Made by a program: the position numbers and the translations under genes
DNA from: Lepidurus packardi
Lineage: Eukaryota; Arthropoda; Branchiopoda; Notostraca; Triopsidae
Assembly (NCBI GenBank): GCA_023053545.1
Contig: JAKZAN010000004.1
Location: 7,936,001-8,000,000 of the forward strand
Length of the DNA: 64,000 nucleotides
Direction: 5' to 3'
Notes under the pieces: generated by a model
Databases searched by the model: none
What the model was told of the DNA's origin: nothing
What the model saw: the letters and a program-made list of their open reading frames with translations, nothing else
Shown: one piece after another, positions 11,138-27,877 of the stretch
Numbering within the stretch: position 1 is the stretch's first letter
Layout of the letters: the number at the start of each line of letters is the position of its first letter

Positions 11138-13829
11138 TTACTTTTCAAGAGCTTCTGCTTCTTCGAGCGTGTCGGGTAATTTTCGACCCAAGGTTTCGGG
11201 TAATAAGATCGAAACCAGGCCGCCTGCCAAGGACAAGCTACCGAATATTAAGTAAGGCAATTCCACTCGCGTTTCTCCCTTTAACAAAAAGGGAAAGTTA
11301 AAAAAAATATTGTTTCTTCTAACTAATGGATTTTAATTACCAAGGCAGCGACGTATGGCGAGAGAGCTGTTCCAATACGGCAAAAAGTGGAACATATTCC
11401 CACTGTCGCAGCTCGGGCTGATGTAGGGAAGAGTTCAGCGGTATAATTAAACACTTCGGCGAATGCTAAAGACACACAGAATTTTCCAACAAGAGAACTA
11501 GTTATCCCGGCAGCACTAACGTCAAGGAATTCGAAAGCCGCTGCTAAGAGCACACTGAGGCCTCCAACTATTAAAGTACCGCTGAGGGTAATATTCCGGC
11601 CTAATTGAGTGATGGACCACATGCCAAATACATATGAAGGTACTTCGACCAACATCGAAAGCTCAAAGTTCAGAAAGAATCCACCACCTAAGTTGGTAGC
11701 TGCCTGTGATAGACCAAAATAGGCCATAGCACTAGTAATCCTAAGGAGATTGAGATGTAAATAAAAATACAATACTACACAGCCTTAAAATCTAGGATAG
11801 TCGTTGTAATTTGCTTACCATGAAATAAATAGAATGAAAACCCGTTTGCGTAAAACTGGATTTAGCAAGACATCTTTTAAGCTGCTGTCTAATTCATTTC
11901 GCATTTCATCTTGCTCCGAAGTCTTCTCCGGTTTCCCGGATTCTGGTTTCTCCTAATCATGTTTAAAAAATTTAATTTAAAATGTTATCTTAGGATTTTA
12001 AAGGGTTTTCACTGCGAAGTATTCCAAATAATCGTCCGGAATTTGTTTCCCATTAATTCGAGCCAGATTTTCAACTATGGCTTGCGTTTCTTTTATCTTT
12101 CCTTCAGCTACTAACCATCTAGATAATAAAAGATTCTTACGGTTTTAAAGAGAAATTAATAGTGTTCAGCTTACCGTACGGATTCCGGGATAAACCTTAA
12201 GGATAAAAAAAAAATTAATGAACAGTAACGTATGATTTTAAATTATGCAGCTCACCACCAGTATGAAAGAAAGGCTATATATGGAACGGATATCACGACT
12301 TGCAACGTTCGCCAGTCACGGATAAAATATGCCACAACGCCCAATAGTAGTCCGCCTATAGAGAAGGCTATTTGAAATCCCATACCAGCATAAGTTCGAA
12401 AAGCAGGTCCTACCAACTCAACCCCTAGTAAATTTTTTTAATTCTGTGAAAAAATGCTCTCTTTAATAATCTTGTAATACCTAACACGAAACTCATCTCA
12501 AATACGGCGACTCCTCCAACACCAGATAAGAAACGAAATGCTGCAAAAGTTTCGTAATTGGTGACGAATGCGCTGCCAAAAGCGAAGACAATCATCCATG
12601 CATTTACAATAAGGAAGGTTGATTTTCTTCCAATCCTATAATCAAATAAATGTAGAGATTATTTTTATTTATTTATTTAAAGATTAAAGTTTCCTTACTT
12701 GTCAGCCAAAGCTCCGAAGGTCAAGGCTCCTACGAGCATCCCAAACATGTATAAAGAACCGGTCAAAGTCGCTTCCCATTCTTTACCACACGTTAAGCCG
12801 AACTATAATTTATAAGTGCTCAACTCCATACCTTTTAGAAAAAAAGGCGTAATACTTCTGTGACTATAGTGGATGTAAATAATGAATTGTCATAAACCCA
12901 TTCGTTGCAATTTGCAGTCGTGTTATCCGTCAAGCTTCCATCCCAACATTGTTGTTGGTTTGTTAAATTGAGATCATAATAAGTGCATTTATCCGGTACT
13001 CCATTGTCGTACGGCACAACGTTCTCTAGCCAGTCGGGTTCGTAGAGAGATGTTTCGTTATCGCAAACTGCTACTTGACACCTAAGGAACTAAATTAGCT
13101 CATATCGTGTAGTGAGGATAATACACTCGATAGGAGACTAAGAGAAACTAATAGGAGAAACTAACGCCATCACTTTTAAAACCGAACTATGTTCAATTCA
13201 TGGAGTTTGTGATCATATGGAGAGTAATAATGTTGAAAACACTACTATTTGGTAATAGTATACAATGATGGTACAGTGATGATTGATATTCTTTCTGCGA
13301 AAAGACCGTCTAGAATTGATAAAAGTGACATGCTAAGTTTTGTATTTAATAATTTAGACTCGAAAGTCTTACATTGTGTTAGGATTTAAGTGAATCCTAG
13401 TGAATCACTATAATCAGAACTACTGCAAAAACTATAGTTAACCTCTAAACAGCAAACAGGCCTTTATTTTCGCAGTATTTAGCTAAAACTTTGTATGTAA
13501 ATTCCTATTGTACAGTGTTTATATAGTCCGGGGCCTGCAAATGGATGTCTTCGATTTTTCTATAAAGTATCTCTACTACATGCTCCTTGTTGTCACTTAT
13601 GTTTTGTGATGTTGGGTTACCTGTGGTCGGGGATATATCCAACAAAACTGAATGACAGTACAGTAGCTGCAACACAAGCCGCAGGGAGCATTAATAAGCA
13701 GTATACTCGGCGCTGAAACGGTCCAAATTGGCCCACGATTTGCAAAAATCCATCATAATCAAACGGAGCACGTGTTTTGTCATACAAATGAGTTTGACTG
13801 TGCTCGTAAGTCGGTTCCAGATCTGTCAT
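11138..13829 (-). CDS. SLC22-like MFS transporter, copy D
   Basis: Same architecture as its neighbours. Start MTDLEPTYEHSQTHLYD, then FDYDGFLQIVGQFGPFQRR before TM1. The extracellular loop exon (about 12850-13081) begins CQVAVCDNET, is rich in Cys and NxT/S sites, and ends with STIVTEV. Then MFGMLVGALTFGALADK and IGRKSTFL; VELVGPAFRTYAG; IPESVRWLVAEGKIKETQ; AYFGLSQAATNLGGG; ELFPTSARAATVGICS; and the C-terminus LLPETLGRKLPDTLEEAEAL with TAA at 11138-11140. Introns are short except for the first (13082-13616), about 0.5 kb. No disruption was seen. Orphan substrate, presumably an organic cation or zwitterion by family. Confidence 0.85.
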
Positions 13830-14423: not shown

Positions 14424-16830
14424 TTACTTCTCAAGATCTATGGCTTCTTGCAAATTTTCGGGCAAATTCTTTCCTAAAGTCTCAGGAAGCGTTAGTGATA
14501 GAACTCCAGAGGTAAGTCCGCACGCTCCAAAAATAAGGAAAGGCAAAGTTGAGTCCTAAACATACCATTATTGTTAGATTTAAGCTTATTAAGAGAGCCA
14601 AAGTTACCAATAGAACAATATAAGGAGCAGCAATAGACCCAAGCCGGCTCATAGTAGAACATATTCCCAAAGCTGCTCCTCGGGAAGCTGTAGGGAACAA
14701 CTCTACGGTGTACCCATAGATCACACCGAAGGCTAAAGATACGAAAAATTTGCCAATCAACGAAAACGTCGTGGCTAAAAATGGAGGATCTATTCCAAAA
14801 ACGAAATGATTGCTTCATATTTATTAGATTTTAAAATGCATTCTTACCTGGAACAAATGCGACTAAAAAGCAGGCTATTCCTCCGAGAACCAGGGAACCT
14901 CCTAAAGATATTTTTCTGCCCAGTTTCTCGAAACTCCACACTCCCAGAAGGTATGATGGAAGTTCAACTATCATTGACAACTCATAATTCAAGAAATAAT
15001 CCCCGCTTAGGCTTGTTGACGCTATAGAGAGTCCGTAATAGCACATCACTGTGACCACCCTAAAAGAAATCTAAGTATAATATAACGAGCTGAGACACTA
15101 GCTCAAATTTACCAAGCAAAAACCATGATCAACAAGCGTTTGAGAAGGGCAGGGGTTTTCAAAACATCCCAAAAATTCCCCACATTGTCCTCTTGATGAT
15201 CCGGTGGAATTGCTGGAAAACCGTTATCCGCGAGATTTTGATTACTTTCCTAGATAAAATGCCATTTGATTAATACTTTCAGAATTTTCAACGAAATATC
15301 ATACAGATTTTGAATCCATCTTCTCGTGACGTTCGCAATTGTCAAGGAAGTTCACACTCTCAGGTACAGATTTGCCATTGGCTCGAGCTATTTTCTGGAT
15401 AATTTCTTTAGCTTCCTCGTTACGATGTTTGCTAATTAGCCACCGTACTGATTCCGGTACCAACCTATAAAAAATTAGAACTTCACAATCAAACACTCCA
15501 CTCTTATAGATTATTACTAACAAAACGTACCACCAATATATAACGAAAACAGCATACGGAGCAGAAATAATTAATTGCAGGTTTTGCCAATCACGTACAA
15601 AGTACGCGACAAGTCCTGTTAGGATGGCTCCTGTCGTAGAAGCAGCCTGAAAGAAAAAGTTCGTTGCTGTCCGATACTTTGGGCCCACAACTTCAAGTCC
15701 TAAGAACAATATTCGTATATTAACTTAATTCCGTTTATAGTATTCCCATATATTTTTACGAAAGGTACACTTTATCATATCTTACTGTTTATGTATTATA
15801 TTCTTTAGGTAATACTTTTATTCCAGAATGTTTATATTTTTAGCATAATTTATTTTGCCCTTACTTATGCTTATATTTATTTATCTAACATATTGTTAAC
15901 TTTTGCTTAATTACCTAAAACGAGGCATACGGTAAACATTCCTATTCCTCCGGCACCGGCACATAATCGAGATGCTACAAAAGATGCATAATTGGGCATA
16001 AAGGTTCCTCCAATGCAAGCAACGGCCATAAATATCGTCAAGAAAAGAAAAGTGGGCTTTCTTCCTACTCTAAGTTCAGTCAGATCATATATCTCTTGTT
16101 GGTGCAGGGCAAGTAAACTTACTTATCGGAGATGGAACCAAACGAGAAGGCGCCAATGAGCATGCCAGCCATATAGAATGACTCTATTGAGGCTGCCTTC
16201 CAGCTATCGTCGCAGACGAGGTCAAACTATAGGTCCTTTTTTTTACGAAATAGACTAAATAAAACGTACGTGTTTACCTTGGTCACGACGGTGGTTTTAA
16301 ACAGCGATTTGTCATATAAGTAATGTTGACAAGCTATGGCGACAGGGCGAATCGGAGATTCGCCCGTACAAATACTAGGGTTCCAACTTAAGCTATTATT
16401 ATAAATTTGACATGAACTGGGTTTTCCATCTTCCCAAGGTACGGTGTAATTGAGCCATGTCGGAGTATTGACTTCGTAAGTCGAAGATTCGTTGTCGCAG
16501 GCTGGAACAAAACACCTTGAATAATAAGTCTTTCCGTTAGAGTTTCTACACTGGTTTATCTAAATTACAATGCTCATGTTTAAGCTACCTGTGGTCAGGA
16601 ACATTCCCCGCAAAAGAGTAGTACATAACCGAACCAGCTTCGACCATGGCTGTGAAACCCATAAGGATCACAATAAAGAGCTGAAAACTTCCAAATTCAC
16701 CGATTTCAACTAAGATATCATCGTAATCAACCACTGGATCTATTCTGGATTCTTTCTTGAGACCCGAGGGGTCCGACGTAATTTGCACTTCCAGGTGACC
16801 ATTATTCTGCTCAATTTCTGGATCTGACAT
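14424..16830 (-). CDS. SLC22-like MFS transporter, copy E
   Basis: First gene of the cluster in transcription order and the most diverged. Start [15 protein letters not shown] with [17 protein letters not shown]; extracellular loop [20 protein letters not shown], extended and Cys-rich; [14 protein letters not shown] then [82 protein letters not shown]; and [20 protein letters not shown] ending in TAA at 14424-14426. The exon ending at 15299 onward runs to 15709 if intron sequence is included, and its usable part carries [10 protein letters not shown]. The intron upstream of LEVVGPKYR (about 15.7-15.9 kb) is AT-rich and longer than average. Intact by inspection. Confidence 0.85.
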
Positions 16831-18294
<1,464 letters not shown>

Positions 18295-18566
18295 ATATTA
18301 TCTTTAACTCTGTAACCATTTATCTATGATTTGAGTGCTGAAGCAAATACGGGATTTTGTAATATATCTGCTAGTGAATAGCGCAAGTCTTAAAAGTACT
18401 TATCATTGCTTAACACGTTGTGACGCACGCTGGCTCCTCCCAGACCCTGCAGACGTGTTGATGAAGTAAACATTGTTGGAAATTTCTAACATAAGCGCAA
18501 TGAAAGTGGACGGAAGTTCTGTACGGTTTTAGTCAACAAAAAAACGTTTTCTTGAATCGAAGAGCT

Positions 18567-19017
18567 ATGGCTTACATAACGTCAAGTAAAGCTTTCTATA
18601 AGAAACGCTTTCCATTCAAAACTATTCTATTGTTTTTCAGGTGGTGAGCTTGTGGAAACGAAACCTTGGAGTCTTCGTACCATTCCGGATTATTTTATCG
18701 GCATATTTTATGCTATCTTGTTTTTGTAAGCTTATTTATTTGGTGATAATTAGTTGTTTTAATATTTATTCTACTTCAGTTTTCAAACTTTGGTCAATCC
18801 TGGAGGTTCGAGAAAAGGAAGTCGTTATTCCTACGATTACCGTGCTCCTGGGCGTGGCTCTGGGTAATTTTAACACATATTCCTAGTACAACACTTTAGT
18901 AAAACTTTTGCATTGGCATCTAGGCCTCCAAAACCTCCACAAAGAAGAATGGGAGGGCTGGGATTCTCTGGAAGTTCACCCTGTGCTCCACCTGCAGGTG
19001 GTGGCGGATGAGGTTAA
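18567..19017 (+). CDS. SELENOK: Selenoprotein K (UGA = selenocysteine)
   Basis: Small ER membrane protein with roles in ER-associated degradation and, in vertebrates, palmitoylation with DHHC6. Four exons: 18567-18585, 18641-18725, 18780-18863 and 18924-19017, all phase-consistent, encoding 93 residues. Reading: MAYITSSGELVETKPWSLRT, one membrane span (DYFIGIFYAILFFFQTL, about residues 23-40), then a Gly/Arg/Pro-rich cytosolic tail (RYSYDYRAPGRGSG, PPKPPQRRMGG) ending CAPPAGGGG-Sec-G. The TGA at 19009-19011 is followed by GGT and TAA, so Sec is the second-last residue, like the GG-Sec-GR end of vertebrate SelK. Calling TGA as stop would lose only two residues and hide the selenoprotein. A matching SECIS lies downstream. 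Confidence 0.96.
19009..19011 (+). other. In-frame selenocysteine codon (TGA)
   Basis: TGA preceded by four Gly codons and followed by GGT TAA. It is read as Sec because the family has Sec at exactly this place and because a SECIS hairpin lies about 100 nt downstream. Confidence 0.93.
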
Positions 19018-19110
19018 AGTAACTCTTGTCTGCTAACAAGGAAGCTTTACATGCGTCCTTGAGCATTCCAAGAGTGTCTTTCTCTCTACATCATAGCTAA
19101 GATGTCTACA

Positions 19111-19178
19111 ACTTGTCTGTGATGAAGCTGAGTCTGTAAACCGCAACTAAGGTATGACTCGGCGGATGGAAGACAAGT
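19111..19178 (+). promoter_or_regulatory. SECIS element of selenoprotein K
   Basis: All parts of a eukaryotic SECIS are present in order. The lower helix ACTTGTCT (19111-19118) pairs perfectly with AGACAAGT (19171-19178). The quartet has ATGA (19122-19125) opposite a GA at 19165-19166. The upper helix GCTGAGTC (19127-19134) pairs with GACTCGGC (19156-19163), with one G-U pair. An AAA at 19138-19140 lies in the apical region, 12 nt after ATGA, the expected spacing. It recruits SBP2 and the Sec-specific elongation factor to recode UGA. AATAAA follows at 19202-19207. Confidence 0.93.
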
Positions 19179-19201
19179 ATTGAAGACATTTTTAACACGA
19201 C

Positions 19202-19207
19202 AATAAA
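19202..19207 (+). terminator. Polyadenylation signal of selenoprotein K
   Basis: AATAAA placed about 185 nt after the SelK stop and 24 nt after the SECIS, so the SECIS stays inside the mature 3' UTR. Confidence 0.7.
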
Positions 19208-19339
19208 GCAACGACTCACCAAAATGTTAATGTATCGTATGTTTTCGTAAGACTGCCTTCATTCATACATAACTGATAACTTTAAACGAAACACGCTATG
19301 AATTGGATAATAAGCACACACAAAAAAGAACAAAAACAA

Positions 19340-22300
19340 TTAAGGATTTTCGTTTGAGGGGTTATCAGCGCTGTTTCTTGGCACTGAAGTCGCCGCAACA
19401 AGCTTCCCTGTCGTACTTTTGAAAACCATGATTTGTCTATTGGACGCTAAAAGGCGTTCACGTAACTCGGGGGTAGAATTTAGTGGTGTCATTTGAACAG
19501 GTTTTCCATTGCTGGAAGTCGGCATGAAATAAACAGGCATGGTAGAAGTCATTCCAGGCTTGTTTGTCACTAAGGTAGTAGTTGGGATCGAGTATATCAC
19601 CGTACCTTTCTTGACAGCCGAGCTTGAAATGGGTAGCAACTTCGGAGTCGAGCTAGGTTGAAAGGGAACAACGCTTAACAAAGGCGGTGGAGGGCGTATT
19701 GTACTGTTAATCGCCACGTTATTCCCCGCATCAGCGATACTCGTAGCCACATTTGAGCTGACAGAAGGCGTGGGCACAGTCGACGTCGAGTTCACAACCG
19801 TGAATTGTAACGTTGGACTCACGTTGGATGCCAAAGTTATCCGGCTTGCTTGACTGGAAAAGAATGTTTTAGCGGGTACTTTGATAAATTCGACGACACC
19901 GGGACCAGGTTTGCTAGTAAAGGTATTAACAGCCCAACTAGCACTCTTAACGTCTTTTAAGGATTTTACGATAATTCCGCCAGTTTTGTTCTTGGCTGGG
20001 CCGCTAACCAGACTCACCCTTTGAGTTAAAGTGGTCGGGGTTCGACCCGTTGCTTTAACTGTCCTTTGCAGTATAGGGATTCGGTGAATAGGCAAAGGAA
20101 CTGTGCTGGACATGGCTTTAACCATATCGTCTTTCTTTGTTGCGGCAAGAGCGCTTGAATGGGTCCCAGGTGTTACGATTGGCTGGCTGTGTACTGGCGT
20201 AGTCACGACTGAACTGTCAGGACGTAATAATGAGTGACCGGACTCAGTTATAATTTGGACCGCAGTACTCTTCGATGTTATAGCAGGCACTTTCTTCTGC
20301 GCAGATTTTAGTTTCGCGATATCCGAAACTCTGAGAAAGTTATTCATAAGAACGGTAGCTTGACTGGATTTGCTATTAGTCCTACCTCCAGGGTTAGTTT
20401 TGGACAACTCTTCAATTTCTGACGACTCTACACTGATGTTTGCCGTCTCGAGCTCAATACCCGGTTCTGACTCTGCAGCTTCATCTTGCTCGTCGAAATC
20501 AAAGTGGAAATCACTGCCTGCCAAGGACTGAACCGAGGAAATCATAGGTAGGAATTCCGGTTCCTCAATTTGCTGTGGAGGAGAGGGGACACGTCGCATG
20601 AGAACTGATTTTGAACTTTCATCGCGTGAAGGAATAGTAAACGTAGTAAATTTTCTGGGATTCGCGGGGACGGTTTTGGAGGTTGCTGGCGGAGCTACTG
20701 GAACGTCTTGGCTTGCAATGTCAGGCTGACGGTCTTTTCGGCTGCTAAACATTGGCGTAAAACCGCTACTAGGACCATCATGAATTGGTGTTCCTTCTTT
20801 GTTGTGTTTTTCTGGGACAGTAGTTTTGCAAGCGTCTCCCTTTGCTGGTAAATACACGCGGTGCTTCCTCGAAGATGAGCTGACAAATGGCTTGAGAATG
20901 CTACGATTTCGGTTATATGAACTTTCTACCGCCATCAGCATGTCAACACGTCGGGTTTCGAAGCCTGAACAAGTGCCCATGACAATGTCCAACACAGCTT
21001 TAGCTTCTGGTCCTAAATCTAAGCACAAAACAAAAGTATAAACAATTTAGATACAAAACAACAATGAATACAAAGCACAAAATAAAACACTAAGAATAGA
21101 TCGACAGAACTGCAATATTACTCGTAATGTGATAATAAACATCGAACTACAATATATATACGAAAATTAGGAATAAACCTGTTACAGAAAATTTACAACA
21201 CCAATGTGGAGAAACAGAATTAATTAATGAATGTTGAATTGATTTAACCTACTTTTACAAATTTGCTGAATTCTCCGCAAGTACTTTTTCCGCTCCAGCT
21301 TCAATATCATTTCCTCATTGGACAACTGAGTTGATTTTGCATTAAGAGCTTCCAAAGTTTGTTTGGCCTACAAAAGAATAATTAAGTTAATAACTAAATA
21401 AAAGGACAACATACAACAATTAAAGAACAAATGTAATACACAGCGCCCAATTTAATTGCAACTCAAAGCAAATGATACGAACAAAACCAAAAACACTTTT
21501 ATAGAAATATAATTTTACCTTCGACATGACATAAATCTTCGAAGCTTTTCCAACCTCTTCGTCACTTCCATGTAGTACGCGCGTTAAATTCTTCTGCAAA
21601 TCCGCCAAGGTTCTTCGCCGAATACGTTCATTCGCACTTTTTTCTACGTGACGTCTTTCTGAACCGTCCCTCCTCTTCGTACGAGTTTGAGCCTACAATT
21701 ACCAAAAGAAAAACAACGAATTACAATCTTGCCACGACTTCAAATGAACACAATACTTACTGAGGATGTACCAGGTTGTTCTGGACTGGACGCTTCTTCG
21801 CCGTCGTCGCTTATGGACTCAACATCTACGTAATCTTCCGCCAAAACAGACGCCAAATTGTCAATATTTTCTCTAACGTCTTGGGAATCGTGTGAATCTT
21901 CCGAGTCTTCAACAGCCGTATCCGAATCGTCATCAAGATCCACTGTCTCGTCCGTTTGCAGCGCTTTAACAGCATCAGGTACTTCATCTTTGCCGCTTTC
22001 CAGGGGAGCAAGGGGAGTTGCTATCGGTTTGCCAAGACCCCATTTCTTATACAGCCGCTCCTTGTCATTCTCATATTTGATGAACCACTCTTTGGCCGAT
22101 TCCAAGTTCGTGAAGCCTAACCGCATCTCCGCATTCAAAGGATGTCTAGTCATAACTGTTCCATTAGGGTTAACCTCCACCTGAACGGGTACTTTGAGGC
22201 CCTCCTTTAAACAAATGACAGAGAACGACTCAGCATTTGTTTTCTTGGTCTTTTTAACCACTCCAGTTCGACGAATAATTTTAACCGCACCCGCCGAACC

Positions 22301-25300
22301 GTCGCCGGATGAACTTCTAATCACTTTCGCGCTTTTTTTCCTGGAATCGTTGGCAATCTGCTCCAACTCCGCCAAACGCTTAGCCAATTTCAGTTCTTTA
22401 GCCTTGAGTCTCGTGATCTTCTCGTTGGACTCCTCAGCTTTTTCTTGCTCCTCCCGTGCATGTTTCTCGTCAATGGCTTGGCTTACACGGGACCACAAAC
22501 TCTCCAAAACCCTGCTAACCACCGCCGAACTCTCTTTTTCCCTCGTTTTATTGTTGCTGATACACGGTACTAGTCTTACCGCAGGAGGCAGCTCGGACAT
22601 AGAAGAAAGAAAGCTTGTGGAGAAAGGTCCCAGGAATACATGCTCGTTGATCCCGGGGAAGGCGTAAATCCCGAAAGTTTCCAGCATAAACGGCGCTGCG
22701 GGTTCGTTGTCCAGCAATTTGATGGGTAAAGTGACGCGGACTCGTTTATCATGAGCCACTTGCGCGGCTTGGTACATCAGCGAGCGAGGGATCGGGCAAT
22801 TAGTACCCGGCATGAGCAAACCGGCGTTCGTCATGCCTTTGAGCGCTACAATGCACCAGCGATCCTCTTGGGACATCATAGGCAGCAAACACATCACCTG
22901 TGACTCGCTTTTGGGACCCTGCTTGACGAATGTAGCATCCGTCATGGGTAGAATGAGCTTCATTCGACAGTGTTTGGTCTGTGTACCAGGCAACGTACCG
23001 ATTTGCAAGGCGGCGTACAGCGGTTTAGGGAAATATAAACTTTCTCGCTCTAAAGCTAGCTCCAATTGTCGTTTGGCATCTTCGAAGCGTCGAGAAGGGG
23101 GAGGATTCGCCGGAACAGAAGGAACGAAGGCAGTTGCATGGATTTTGCCACTCGGCTCGGGCTCGGACGGTTTGGGGAGGGTTTGTGGCCGCACTTCCAC
23201 TTCGCGATTAGGCTCTGGGGCTTTACGTGATGCTGGAGTTTTAGGTGGTCCTGGATCTTTGTTAAGTTTGTCGGTGATTTCAATTTGGCGGTTTGAACGC
23301 GGTAAAGCGGGCCGTGTGCGTAACTTGGGTCGGTTTTCAATAAGATCCAAGGGTAATTTGGTCTTCGACGTAGGTTTAGGAGCAGCATTAGGGGCAATTG
23401 CTGCTGGGGGAAGTTTACTAAGAAGTTTCTTATTGGACTGACCCTCCAAATTGGCAGCCAGCTCCCATTTGACGCTATCGCAGAACAAAATGGCGTACGA
23501 AGTGGGCGGAATTGCGGTCGAGAAGAGAATATGTACCAAACCTGGCGCTTCTTCTTTGTCTTTCAAATCCCGCACGTCCACCGTGATGTCTGTTGCTACC
23601 GCGTCTTGGGGTTTGGAAATGATAACGGTAGATTGGTTGCGTCGCTTCAAGACCCGAATGGAAACGAGATTATCCGCTAGCAATTGCTGCAAGCGAACCC
23701 AACGCACTACTTGAATCATCTCTTGGTTGCGGATAGTGAGATCTATCTCGCTATCGTGGCGGACTTCTTCCTGCGCGACCAAATCCTTGAATAATAGCTT
23801 CTTTTCTTGCATGACTTTGTGGATTTTCTGCGAAATCACCGTCTGGTTAGCAGCTTCATTTGGGTTGCCTGAAGAAGAGCGTTTAAGGCCGCGAGTTGGG
23901 CCTTGTTGCTGTTTAGGTGTATAGTTTTTGTTGACCATGTCTTTCAAAGAGCGCATCGAGTACTCTTTGCTGTTGTACTTGGAAAGATTTACTGGAGACG
24001 GAGACCTCTCAAATCCGCCTGAGACGAATTCCGAGCCCATGAGGAACACGCTGTCTTTGAAGCGGTTCGGAATGCGACGCTCGCGTTGCTTTTTCTCGCC
24101 CATAACGACAACTTCGGATCCTTTCTTGACCACCGTTTGCAGAAAATCCTTTTCGGTTTTGGATAAATTTTTTTTCCCTTCGTCTTCGATCTGGTTCAAG
24201 TAAGCCTCAGTCAAAAGCGTTTTATGCGTTGCACTTGTTGATATTCTGGTGATCCGATCCGGAGGGCAACTGCATTCGAACATACAATCGGCCCGGCCGC
24301 AATGCTCGATGGTGTGGCTGTCAGCTTTTAAACTATCGCAAAGACAGCCTAGTTTGCAGAACGCTTGCTTGCAAGCATCAGGATTTGACGCTTTGGTTTC
24401 CTTTCGAGCTTTTTCTTCCTCTTCACCAGTTCCCACGACGTCAATGATCTCGTTGTCCATCTCAACGTACTGGACGCCGAGTCGTCCTAACTCGAGTCGT
24501 ACTCTTTTGGAAGGTTTGGTACCGTTCGGCATTTTGCGCTTCGCAATTGGCGAGGGGCTTACTGACGTCGAACTAGCTCTGGAGACGTTGCAGACGTCAA
24601 TGTGAGAATCAGGGCTTTCCGGACATGTCTGCTTAGGCATTTTAGGCAACCGGGCGACTTTCGGTTTTCTACGGCGAGTTTTACGTACACGTACTGGAGT
24701 ACAGCACGCCGGAAGTACGAAGGAGTCCAAGTTGACTGTGGGGGCATTAAGCTCGAGTCTATGGACTCGAACTTGCAATTCGGGCAGCCGTAAGGCTTGC
24801 AAAGCGTAGTTGACGTATTCTGCGTTCATCTCCCGTGCTACTAACGCTAGTTTTTTCAAACGGCGCGCTTTTTGGGGTAGTGGTACGGGTACGGTGACTG
24901 GCTGCGGTGAAACTGTGGTTTCTTCATCGCTTACGACTGATACTATTTCTTCGTTGGACCCAACAGGAATTATGTTAAATTGGGACATTTTCTTACGCCA
25001 GCCTTTAACTTGCTTGATATCGTTCGTTTTCCGCAAGACGAGATCTTTGATTTGGGATTGGGCTGCTTCCGGAGGGAACGTCAAGAGATCTTTCTCGGAC
25101 CTGAAGGATAAAATGGTAACATCATCAATCACATCTTGCTCCACATCAAAGGGTTTACAGAGTTTGCGATTTTTCGAAGCTTCCAAATCCCAATCTTCCA
25201 AATCAGCTAAGCTCTCTTGCGCAGTAAGCGGGGCCGGATTGGACATTTCTGCTGGGGATGACATAGCCCGATTCATTTCCGGTTCATTCGAAGCTGCACT

Positions 25301-27877
25301 TGGAATGACAACTTGCTGTTTAACTTCCGAACTTGATATTGTAACGTCAGTTTGCACTTCATTTTCCAAATTTGTAGCTGGCATATCAACTGGAGCTTCT
25401 TTCGAAAATGTAAACGACGCTTCACTTTCATTTACATTTTGGGTACTTTTAATAGGATTCTCCATTAGACTTGTAGATTCAAGAATTTCTTCAACTGGAG
25501 GAAATGGTACTGCCGGTGATGATTTGGTCTTTGATGGCGGACCCTGAGTTTCTTGCTCTTTGTTCTCATTCCCAACTTTAGAAGGTTCTGAATCGGTTGT
25601 TTGACTGTCAAACGTGTTTAATAGAAATGGATTAGACAACTCGCTGAGGGCTTCGTTATGATGTGGATTCGGAATAGAATCTGGTTTGCTTTGGGGCTCT
25701 GAATTGGCCTCTGGCTCACTGCATTTGTTAAAAGAACCATCTCCCAAGACAGGATTGACGAGTGTAATTTCCACCGTATTCTCCTTAGAAGGATTCAAGG
25801 GTTCCTTGAACATTGGACTTACCATAGCCACTGGGATGTTCCCTTTGGCAACTTTGGCGAGCAGAGACTCGGAGACTGGAATGATACAGCCGCACGGTCT
25901 CTTTGTGGCATCCACACAGACCCCTGGTTCGGTAACTCTAATTTCCAGCTTTTCTTCATCCTTTGCAGTAGGCATATTTTGCAATGTTTGTATACTTCGT
26001 TGCTCATTTTCGTGCTTCTCTGTTTCCGTATTTCCTACTGCTGCCTGTTCACAATCCCAATCATCCCATAAAATGTTGATTTTTTTTGCAGGAACTGGAG
26101 ATATGGAATAGTCTCCATCTTCTTTCTGAGTAATTACTACAACTTGATCTTTTTCTGTAATTTGTTTTGAAGTTGACGCAAGTTCTTTAAATGACTTCTC
26201 GGAATAGGTTTTCACCTCACTGGTGGTTTGTCGCTCTGTTTTCACGCTAGAGGGACGATACGTCTTGCGAACCGCTAAGGATTTGGGTTCCGCATTTAGA
26301 ATTAATACAACTTTCTTTTCTGTCTCACTTTCAACCGTTGGAATCGTAGCTGAAGTTGATGGTTTGGGGACCGTCATGGTTTTGCTAGGTCCGATGCTGA
26401 TCTTTTGTAATCTCAATACGGGCATTCTGATGTTTGAATGGGTCATTTTGAATTGATGGGTTAGGACCGTTTCTTCTTGGGGTTGAGCGAGAGTAATATC
26501 GACTATTTCCACAGGTTTAGAATTGGTTTCGATAAGATCCTCCATTGAGGGTAAGGTTTTGCTATTCTTTTGCATGTAAGCCCTTTTCTTCATGATCTTT
26601 ATGTTCCTTTTCTTCTTCTGGATTCTAACTTTTCCTTTCGACCTGGCTGCAGCTAATTTCTTACTTAAGGGCGCTGGTTTGCAGTCGGAGATTGCGACGA
26701 CTTTTGATTCCGAATTGGTAGACGAAGCGGATTCGTAAACAACTCGCTGTTTAGCTTCACTTGAAACTCTTCTATTGGCGATGGAAGCGCGTAACAAAGG
26801 TCTGGGGCGTTGGGAAGTGTCTTCATTACTTGAAGGAATTGTAGAGCAGTCGGATTCGGAAGCGTCCTCGAGTTTCAAAATGCGACTAGTTTCATTTAAT
26901 TGTATCTGCCCTAGACCAGTGATGACATCCAAATCAGCTCTGGAAATACGAATCCCCTGGGTTTTCTTTTTCTTCTTTTTAGGTGACGTTTTTCTAGTCG
27001 TCTTACTTGTCGATGAATTACCAGTTTTGGTACTTATGCTATATGCTGGAGATTTTGCAGGTTTAAAGATTTGGGATTCTTTCCTTAACGAGTCTGATTG
27101 TCTACTAGCAATTAGGTTAATTTCAGCTGGACTGGTCCTAAGCGGAATCCTAGTTTCGCAATTCGGTTTTGTTCGCCCCTCAATTCGCTTTACGATCTTT
27201 TCTGTATTTAGTGATGCAGTTTTGGACCTCTTATAGTTTGACTTCGCTTCAATGTCTTCTCGCGATTCAGATTTTGGCAATTGCGGCACCTCCTCGGTAG
27301 CCTCTACAACGGCTTTACTTCTCACTTTAGCATAGTTGCGTTTCAAATTTTGTATCAGTTGGTGAGTTTTCTTTTGCTTTATTTCTGCTACTTTTTTACG
27401 TTTCACTGCTAATGCCTCAACAGCTCTTTTGCTGTTTTCTAACCGATTTGCAGATAATTCAAAGCTTTGTTCGGTAATTTGGTCTGGGACAACTTGGGAC
27501 GTACCAACTTTTGCTTGGTTTGGCAGAACGATGGCGCCACTTTTAGTTCCAGGCTTAGATAAAGAGTTGCTGTCCGTTGCCGCGCCTAGCGCAGGGGTTT
27601 TGGAGTACGCCTCCCTTACTTGGTCGTAATCTCCTTCACTATTAACCTTTTTAGCAGGAGATGAATAACTTTGAACTTTCCCCATACCTTGACGACAACG
27701 ATTGCAAACGAAATAATAGTACTTAGTACACACCGACTCTTTGAGATTTATGTTCACCCACAACGAAATGCAACCGGAAAACGCTACGATGCCTTGGTAT
27801 CCACGAGCACCCAAAAATCCAGACACGAAAACTAACCCGAAACCAACCTGCCATAAGATAATTGAGAAAATGGTCAT
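19340..27877 (-). CDS. MGA-like protein: Cys-rich MGA domain and bHLH-zipper
   Basis: Nuclear DNA-binding scaffold resembling MGA, the MAX partner that nucleates the PRC1.6 repressor complex. Coding exons: one giant exon down to 21761, then 21519-21692, 21253-21367 and 19340-21018. With the ATG at 27685 this gives 2630 residues; the frame is open further, to an ATG at 27877. Near residue 1100 is CKLGCLCDSL ... HCGRADCMFECSCP, the Cys pattern of the conserved domain specific to MGA proteins. A globular stretch follows (MKLILPMTDATFVKQG onward). Exon 2 gives the basic helix-loop-helix (RRHVEKSANERIRRRTLADL ... VGKASKIYVMSK) and exon 3 the zipper (AKQTLEALNAKSTQLSNEEM). The long N-terminal part is Lys/Ser-rich and disordered; the last exon is Ser/Thr/Val-rich. 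No T-box, present in vertebrate MGA, was found in the window. Confidence 0.85.

Follow-up and report, generated by a model that had tools for sequence, protein, structure and literature searches.

A probable selenoprotein K gene with an in-frame TGA as its penultimate codon and a SECIS-like hairpin in its 3' UTR

Selenoprotein K (SelK) has been described as an ER membrane protein linked to palmitoylation and ERAD (PMC10298544, PMC6555942), and in mammalian SelK residue Sec92 was reported to stabilise the acyl-DHHC6 intermediate and to promote palmitoylation (PMC5789314). Sec-encoding SelK genes are described in most Drosophila and in mosquitoes (PMC2500217), in ticks (PMC6555942) and in the beetle Onthophagus taurus (PMC5330540). 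The survey of Drosophila and mosquitoes also searched Daphnia pulex and, in the sections available to us, saw no selenoprotein loss outside Endopterygota (PMC2500217). The available sections of another report credit D. pulex with 16 selenoproteins and mention two Sec-less mites outside insects (PMC5330540). As far as these sections go, Sec retention is the usual state outside insects (PMC2500217, PMC5330540).

The locus described here lies in a window of 64,000 nt (the whole stretch of DNA that was analysed), which corresponds to C3:7936001-8000000 in an assembly of 108,557,554 bases and 344 contigs. The SelK gene was read on the + strand at 18567-19207, where splicing by script joined four exons in one 93-codon frame. 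Exon 1 (18567-18585) encodes MAYITS plus 1 nt and ends in phase 1, exon 2 (18641-18725) contains the start of the putative membrane-spanning stretch as judged by hydropathy, exon 3 (18780-18863) encodes a Gly/Arg/Ser-rich portion, and exon 4 (18924-19017) encodes PPKPPQRRMG, Cys83 and GGGG-Sec92-Gly93 and ends with TAA. The three introns (55, 54 and 60 nt; phases 1, 2 and 2) are all GT-AG, and the unbroken frame of 282 nt translates as MAYITSSGELVETKPWSLRTIPDYFIGIFYAILFFFQTLVNPGGSRKGSRYSYDYRAPGRGSGPPKPPQRRMGGLGFSGSSPCAPPAGGGG-U-G-stop. Codon 92 of 93 in the spliced frame is an in-frame TGA (19009-19011), which is followed by GGT and by TAA at 19015-19017, the end of the frame being GGGG-TGA-G-stop. 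We take this penultimate position of Sec to be that of the family. An AATAAA polyadenylation signal at 19202-19207 (+ strand) is the sole AATAAA or ATTAAA in 18501-19500.

Our results bear out the preliminary description of this DNA in that it recognised a complete four-exon SelK gene with a TGA ahead of the last Gly codon. Its statement that the gene is invisible to ordinary ORF calling was overstated, as what keeps the gene off ORF lists is the length of its coding exons, 19 to 94 nt, as for any short-exon gene, and not the Sec codon. The warning that standard annotation would truncate or miss the gene also went too far, since a protein ended at the TGA would lack no more than Sec92 and Gly93 and keep 91 of the 93 residues.

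The identity of the spliced protein was established using Pfam, in which PF10961 (SelK_SelG) matched over its full profile (1-86 of 86) with 76.2 bits (cut-off 23.3) and an E value of 3.1e-21. The best 19-residue hydropathy mean, 1.56, was found at residues 25-43, a borderline value from a single calculation. A tblastn-type search of the assembly, carried out with a SelK query in which one residue differs, returned this locus (as three exon pieces) as the sole one, and the gene is apparently single-copy; just one candidate was scored in this search, hence it may have overlooked a second, diverged copy. A PDB search with SelK gave two chance matches only (E ~0.7), no SelK relative was matched in phage records, and 49 pattern stretches in viral contigs included no relative. 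Furthermore, an ER-stress promoter element (CCAAT-N9-CCACG, with at most 2 mismatches) matched 27 times compared to 38.4 expected and never within the gap between RPB10 and SelK (18295-18566), which leaves the idea of an ER-stress promoter without support.

RPB10, an RNA polymerase subunit (RNA_pol_N, PF01194, E 1.8e-33), is encoded by two coding exons upstream of SelK (18037-18294, + strand). Downstream of SelK, the - strand carries a 562-aa open frame with no Pfam match and one uninterrupted open frame of 2045 aa (21740-27877) that matches the MGA conserved domain (MGA_dom, PF16059, E 2.1e-14) and otherwise has no Pfam match. Elsewhere in the window, three transporter fragments were observed on the - strand at 1918-2385, 11323-11772 and 15299-15709 (two matches to MFS_1 below cut-off and one to Sugar_tr above it), which probably represent exons belonging to organic-solute transporters in a tandem array. 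ARAGORN found no genes in the window.

The 3' UTR of SelK contains a SECIS-like hairpin (19111-19178, + strand). Its 8-bp lower helix pairs ACTTGTCT with AGACAAGT (19111-19118 with 19171-19178), its core consists of ATGA (19122-19125) and GA (19165-19166), and its 8-bp upper helix pairs GCTGAGTC with GACTCGGC (19127-19134 with 19156-19163). An apical AAA (19138-19140) starts 12 nt past ATGA, and 110 nt separate the TGA of SelK from the ATGA core. The predicted fold adds a small 3-bp stem above (19140-19142 with 19151-19153), which we take to be as in form 2 SECIS elements. The region 19105-19185, whose folding had been proposed as a check, folded at -27.2 kcal/mol (z -4.24), and none of 200 shuffles was equally good. 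We also scanned both strands of the window (128 kb) with a pattern that demands ATGA, AA at 9-13 nt, GA, and helices of at least 8 and at least 8 bp (strict) or at least 7 and at least 6 bp (loose). The strict pattern found one site, compared to a shuffle mean of 0.015 (3 of 200 shuffles with any), and the loose pattern likewise one site, compared to a mean of 0.275 (45 of 200); these rates are indicative, as the thresholds were chosen after the hairpin had been seen.

Covariance models were less generous. Rfam returned no match at gathering level in the whole window, and SECIS_1, with a cut-off of 35 bits, scored 22.3 bits at 19113-19176 (E 0.072 for 501 bases). A genome-wide SECIS_1 search, in which 133 of 1629 candidates were scored, did not include the SelK hairpin among the 4 places listed. 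Covariance scores are described as generally lower for non-vertebrate SECIS elements (PMC6555942). The helices, the ATGA/GA core, the apical AAA and the spacing are as the preliminary description had them, and its word 'textbook' is a little strong given the SECIS_1 score.

Decoding of the TGA would require selenocysteine machinery, and a search for SBP2, eEFSec, SPS2 and tRNA-Sec found all four in the assembly. The machinery genes lie on long contigs, C1 to C5, and the protein genes were identified as exon pieces. An intronless tRNA-Sec at C4:8069987-8070072 scored 77.8 bits (cut-off 47) and was called tRNA-SeC with anticodon TCA by ARAGORN. eEFSec is represented on C2 by selB pieces and a GTPase start, with human eEFSec as best PDB match (E 6.7e-32). 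SepSecS is represented on C5 by four ordered pieces above cut-off that span 22-317 of 389 positions, and PSTK on C3 reached 101.6 bits, a translated stretch matching TIGR03575 at 2.2e-27 and PSTK in the PDB at 9.2e-11. The selB and PSTK models match exon by exon only, below their whole-protein cut-offs. An L7Ae family search of the assembly listed 9 places, none of which was recognised as SBP2; a direct query revealed an SBP2-type L7Ae stretch on C5, 40% identical over 55 residues, for which SBP2 was the top match in the PDB (1.7e-8, against 0.051 for the next best). Finally, SPS2 on C1 was identified from TIGR00476 pieces and carries an in-frame TGA in LKG-TGA-GCKVP.

Other candidate Sec genes of the host were also found. 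Pieces of a thioredoxin reductase on C4 are followed by GGC-TGC-TGA-GGT-TAA, that is, a GC-Sec-G end, and the ~815 nt after this TGA yielded no canonical SECIS. At SPS2, the two candidates from a first SECIS scan were weak, lay upstream of the Sec codon and were rejected. A looser scan then found a hairpin 3' of SPS2, near C1:5089907 (ATGA..AAAA..GA, upper helix of 11 pairs, z -3.15, equalled by 1 of 200 shuffles), which the first scan had missed because of its lower-helix rule; when 395 pieces of 900 nt were drawn at random from the window as a control, 3 had an upper helix of at least 9 pairs. Rfam reported no SECIS in the same 5 kb around SPS2 and did not list the downstream hairpin. A search for the selenoprotein W/T/H family (PF10262) gave two places, both on short contigs (C108 and C122), and none on long contigs. 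Together, the tRNA-Sec, eEFSec, SepSecS, PSTK, the SBP2-type domain, the Sec-codon SPS2 and the GC-TGA-G end of thioredoxin reductase mean that the host very probably makes selenoproteins. The view that this lineage keeps the Sec machinery stands in so far as the machinery genes are in the assembly; its framing by comparison to insects is not supported, as nothing tested places the host in insects.

The assembly also contains sequences of other kinds. Many COX1-like fragments in which TGA is read as sense occur on C1, C2, C4, C5, C6, C21 and C38 and are nuclear copies of mitochondrial DNA. Read with the invertebrate mitochondrial code, locus L029 shows an ND2-like frame followed by one that resembles COX1, and ARAGORN found no tRNAs at three COX1-type loci. 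The COX1- and ND2-like pieces presumably resemble arthropod, possibly crustacean, proteins, and by these pieces the host looks like an arthropod. Intact bacterial-type cytochrome oxidase frames lie on C52 (L026), C214 (L027) and C43 (L028, which we take to be cbb3-like), and C52 and C60 carry selD-like matches, apparently duplicated; C43, C52, C60 and C214 are bacterial contigs. On C122, a selenoprotein W-like protein with CGG-TGA in a 130-aa frame (L070, 38179-38412) has a SECIS_1 match of 25.9 bits just 3' of it on the same strand (L053, 38471-38531), and this short contig may come from another eukaryote in the sample. A second, different tRNA-Sec (L005, C325:20396-20482, 64.1 bits, anticodon TCA) lies on a 51-kb A+T-rich contig and is probably from another organism. 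A second SepSecS (L034 and L036, C229:39557-40876) has in-frame TAG in its best stretches (3 in each) and one TAA, which suggests a eukaryote, perhaps a ciliate, that uses TAG and TAA as sense; introns read through are an alternative.

We consider it about 95% probable, on the strength of these sequence features, that the locus is a functional, apparently single-copy SelK gene in which TGA is decoded as Sec92 via the 3'-UTR SECIS. The SelK mRNA with its four coding exons would be translated up to the TGA at 19009, where the hairpin would recruit SBP2 and eEFSec with Sec-tRNA, allowing TGA to be decoded as Sec92 before Gly93 and the TAA stop. The predicted product is a membrane protein of 93 residues that has a single hydrophobic segment and a disordered tail, rich in Gly, Pro and Arg, that carries Sec. 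Like its mammalian counterpart, this SelK may reside in the ER membrane, where it would aid DHHC6-type palmitoylation and the quality control of ER proteins.

If the TGA were instead a true stop, the product would be a 91-residue Sec-less SelK and the hairpin a relic or a chance structure. There is precedent, as a Sec-less SelK with a degenerate SECIS is described in Drosophila willistoni and D. persimilis (PMC2500217), and the sub-threshold Rfam score of the hairpin points the same way. However, TGA-GGT-TAA retains the Sec-Gly end two codons ahead of a second stop, both 8-bp helices and the core motifs of the hairpin are intact, and the assembly contains tRNA-Sec and Sec factors, which makes termination at the TGA very unlikely. 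A pseudogene, or a contaminant in place of a host gene, seems to us slightly less probable still. Contigs from bacteria and from other eukaryotes do occur in the assembly, but the contig that contains the window is 12.9 Mb long, SelK is flanked there by RPB10 and other multi-exon genes, and its four exons share an open frame and have intact splice sites.

The single cysteine of this SelK, Cys83, is located nine residues before Sec92 in the flexible Gly/Pro tail. Human SelK is not known to contain any cysteine, and that of Drosophila has one near the place of Cys83. One could imagine that Cys83-Sec92 (Cys-X8-Sec) in arthropod SelK forms an intramolecular selenenylsulfide redox switch absent from cysteine-free vertebrate SelK, an idea that we consider improbable.

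With respect to known systems, SELENOK (PF10961) shares with the protein described here a small size, a PPxPPxRRMG-type stretch and a penultimate or near-last Sec after a Gly run; its single membrane span and its 3'-UTR SECIS have likely counterparts here in the hydrophobic segment and the SECIS-like hairpin. Sec92 bears the same residue number as Sec92 of human SELENOK in the available text of PMC5789314. As far as published descriptions allow the comparison, the SelK genes of flies, mosquitoes, ticks and O. taurus are Sec-encoding with a SECIS, to which the TGA and the SECIS-like hairpin described here correspond. The SECIS of tick SelK also scores modestly with a covariance model, its Infernal score being 19.62, a value that was obtained with SECISearch3's own model and is not comparable bit for bit to ours (PMC6555942). 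D. pulex, an arthropod, likewise keeps Sec, but both of its tRNA-Sec genes are described as having introns (PMC5330540), whereas the tRNA-Sec found here has none. Since Sec-encoding SelK is already documented in flies, mosquitoes and ticks as well as in a beetle, and selenoproteins in Daphnia, the gene belongs to a known family. It adds to the well-supported Sec genes of animals a further one, found along with its machinery, and raises no new question alone; its use lies in correct annotation, with the last two residues restored, and in mapping which arthropods keep Sec.
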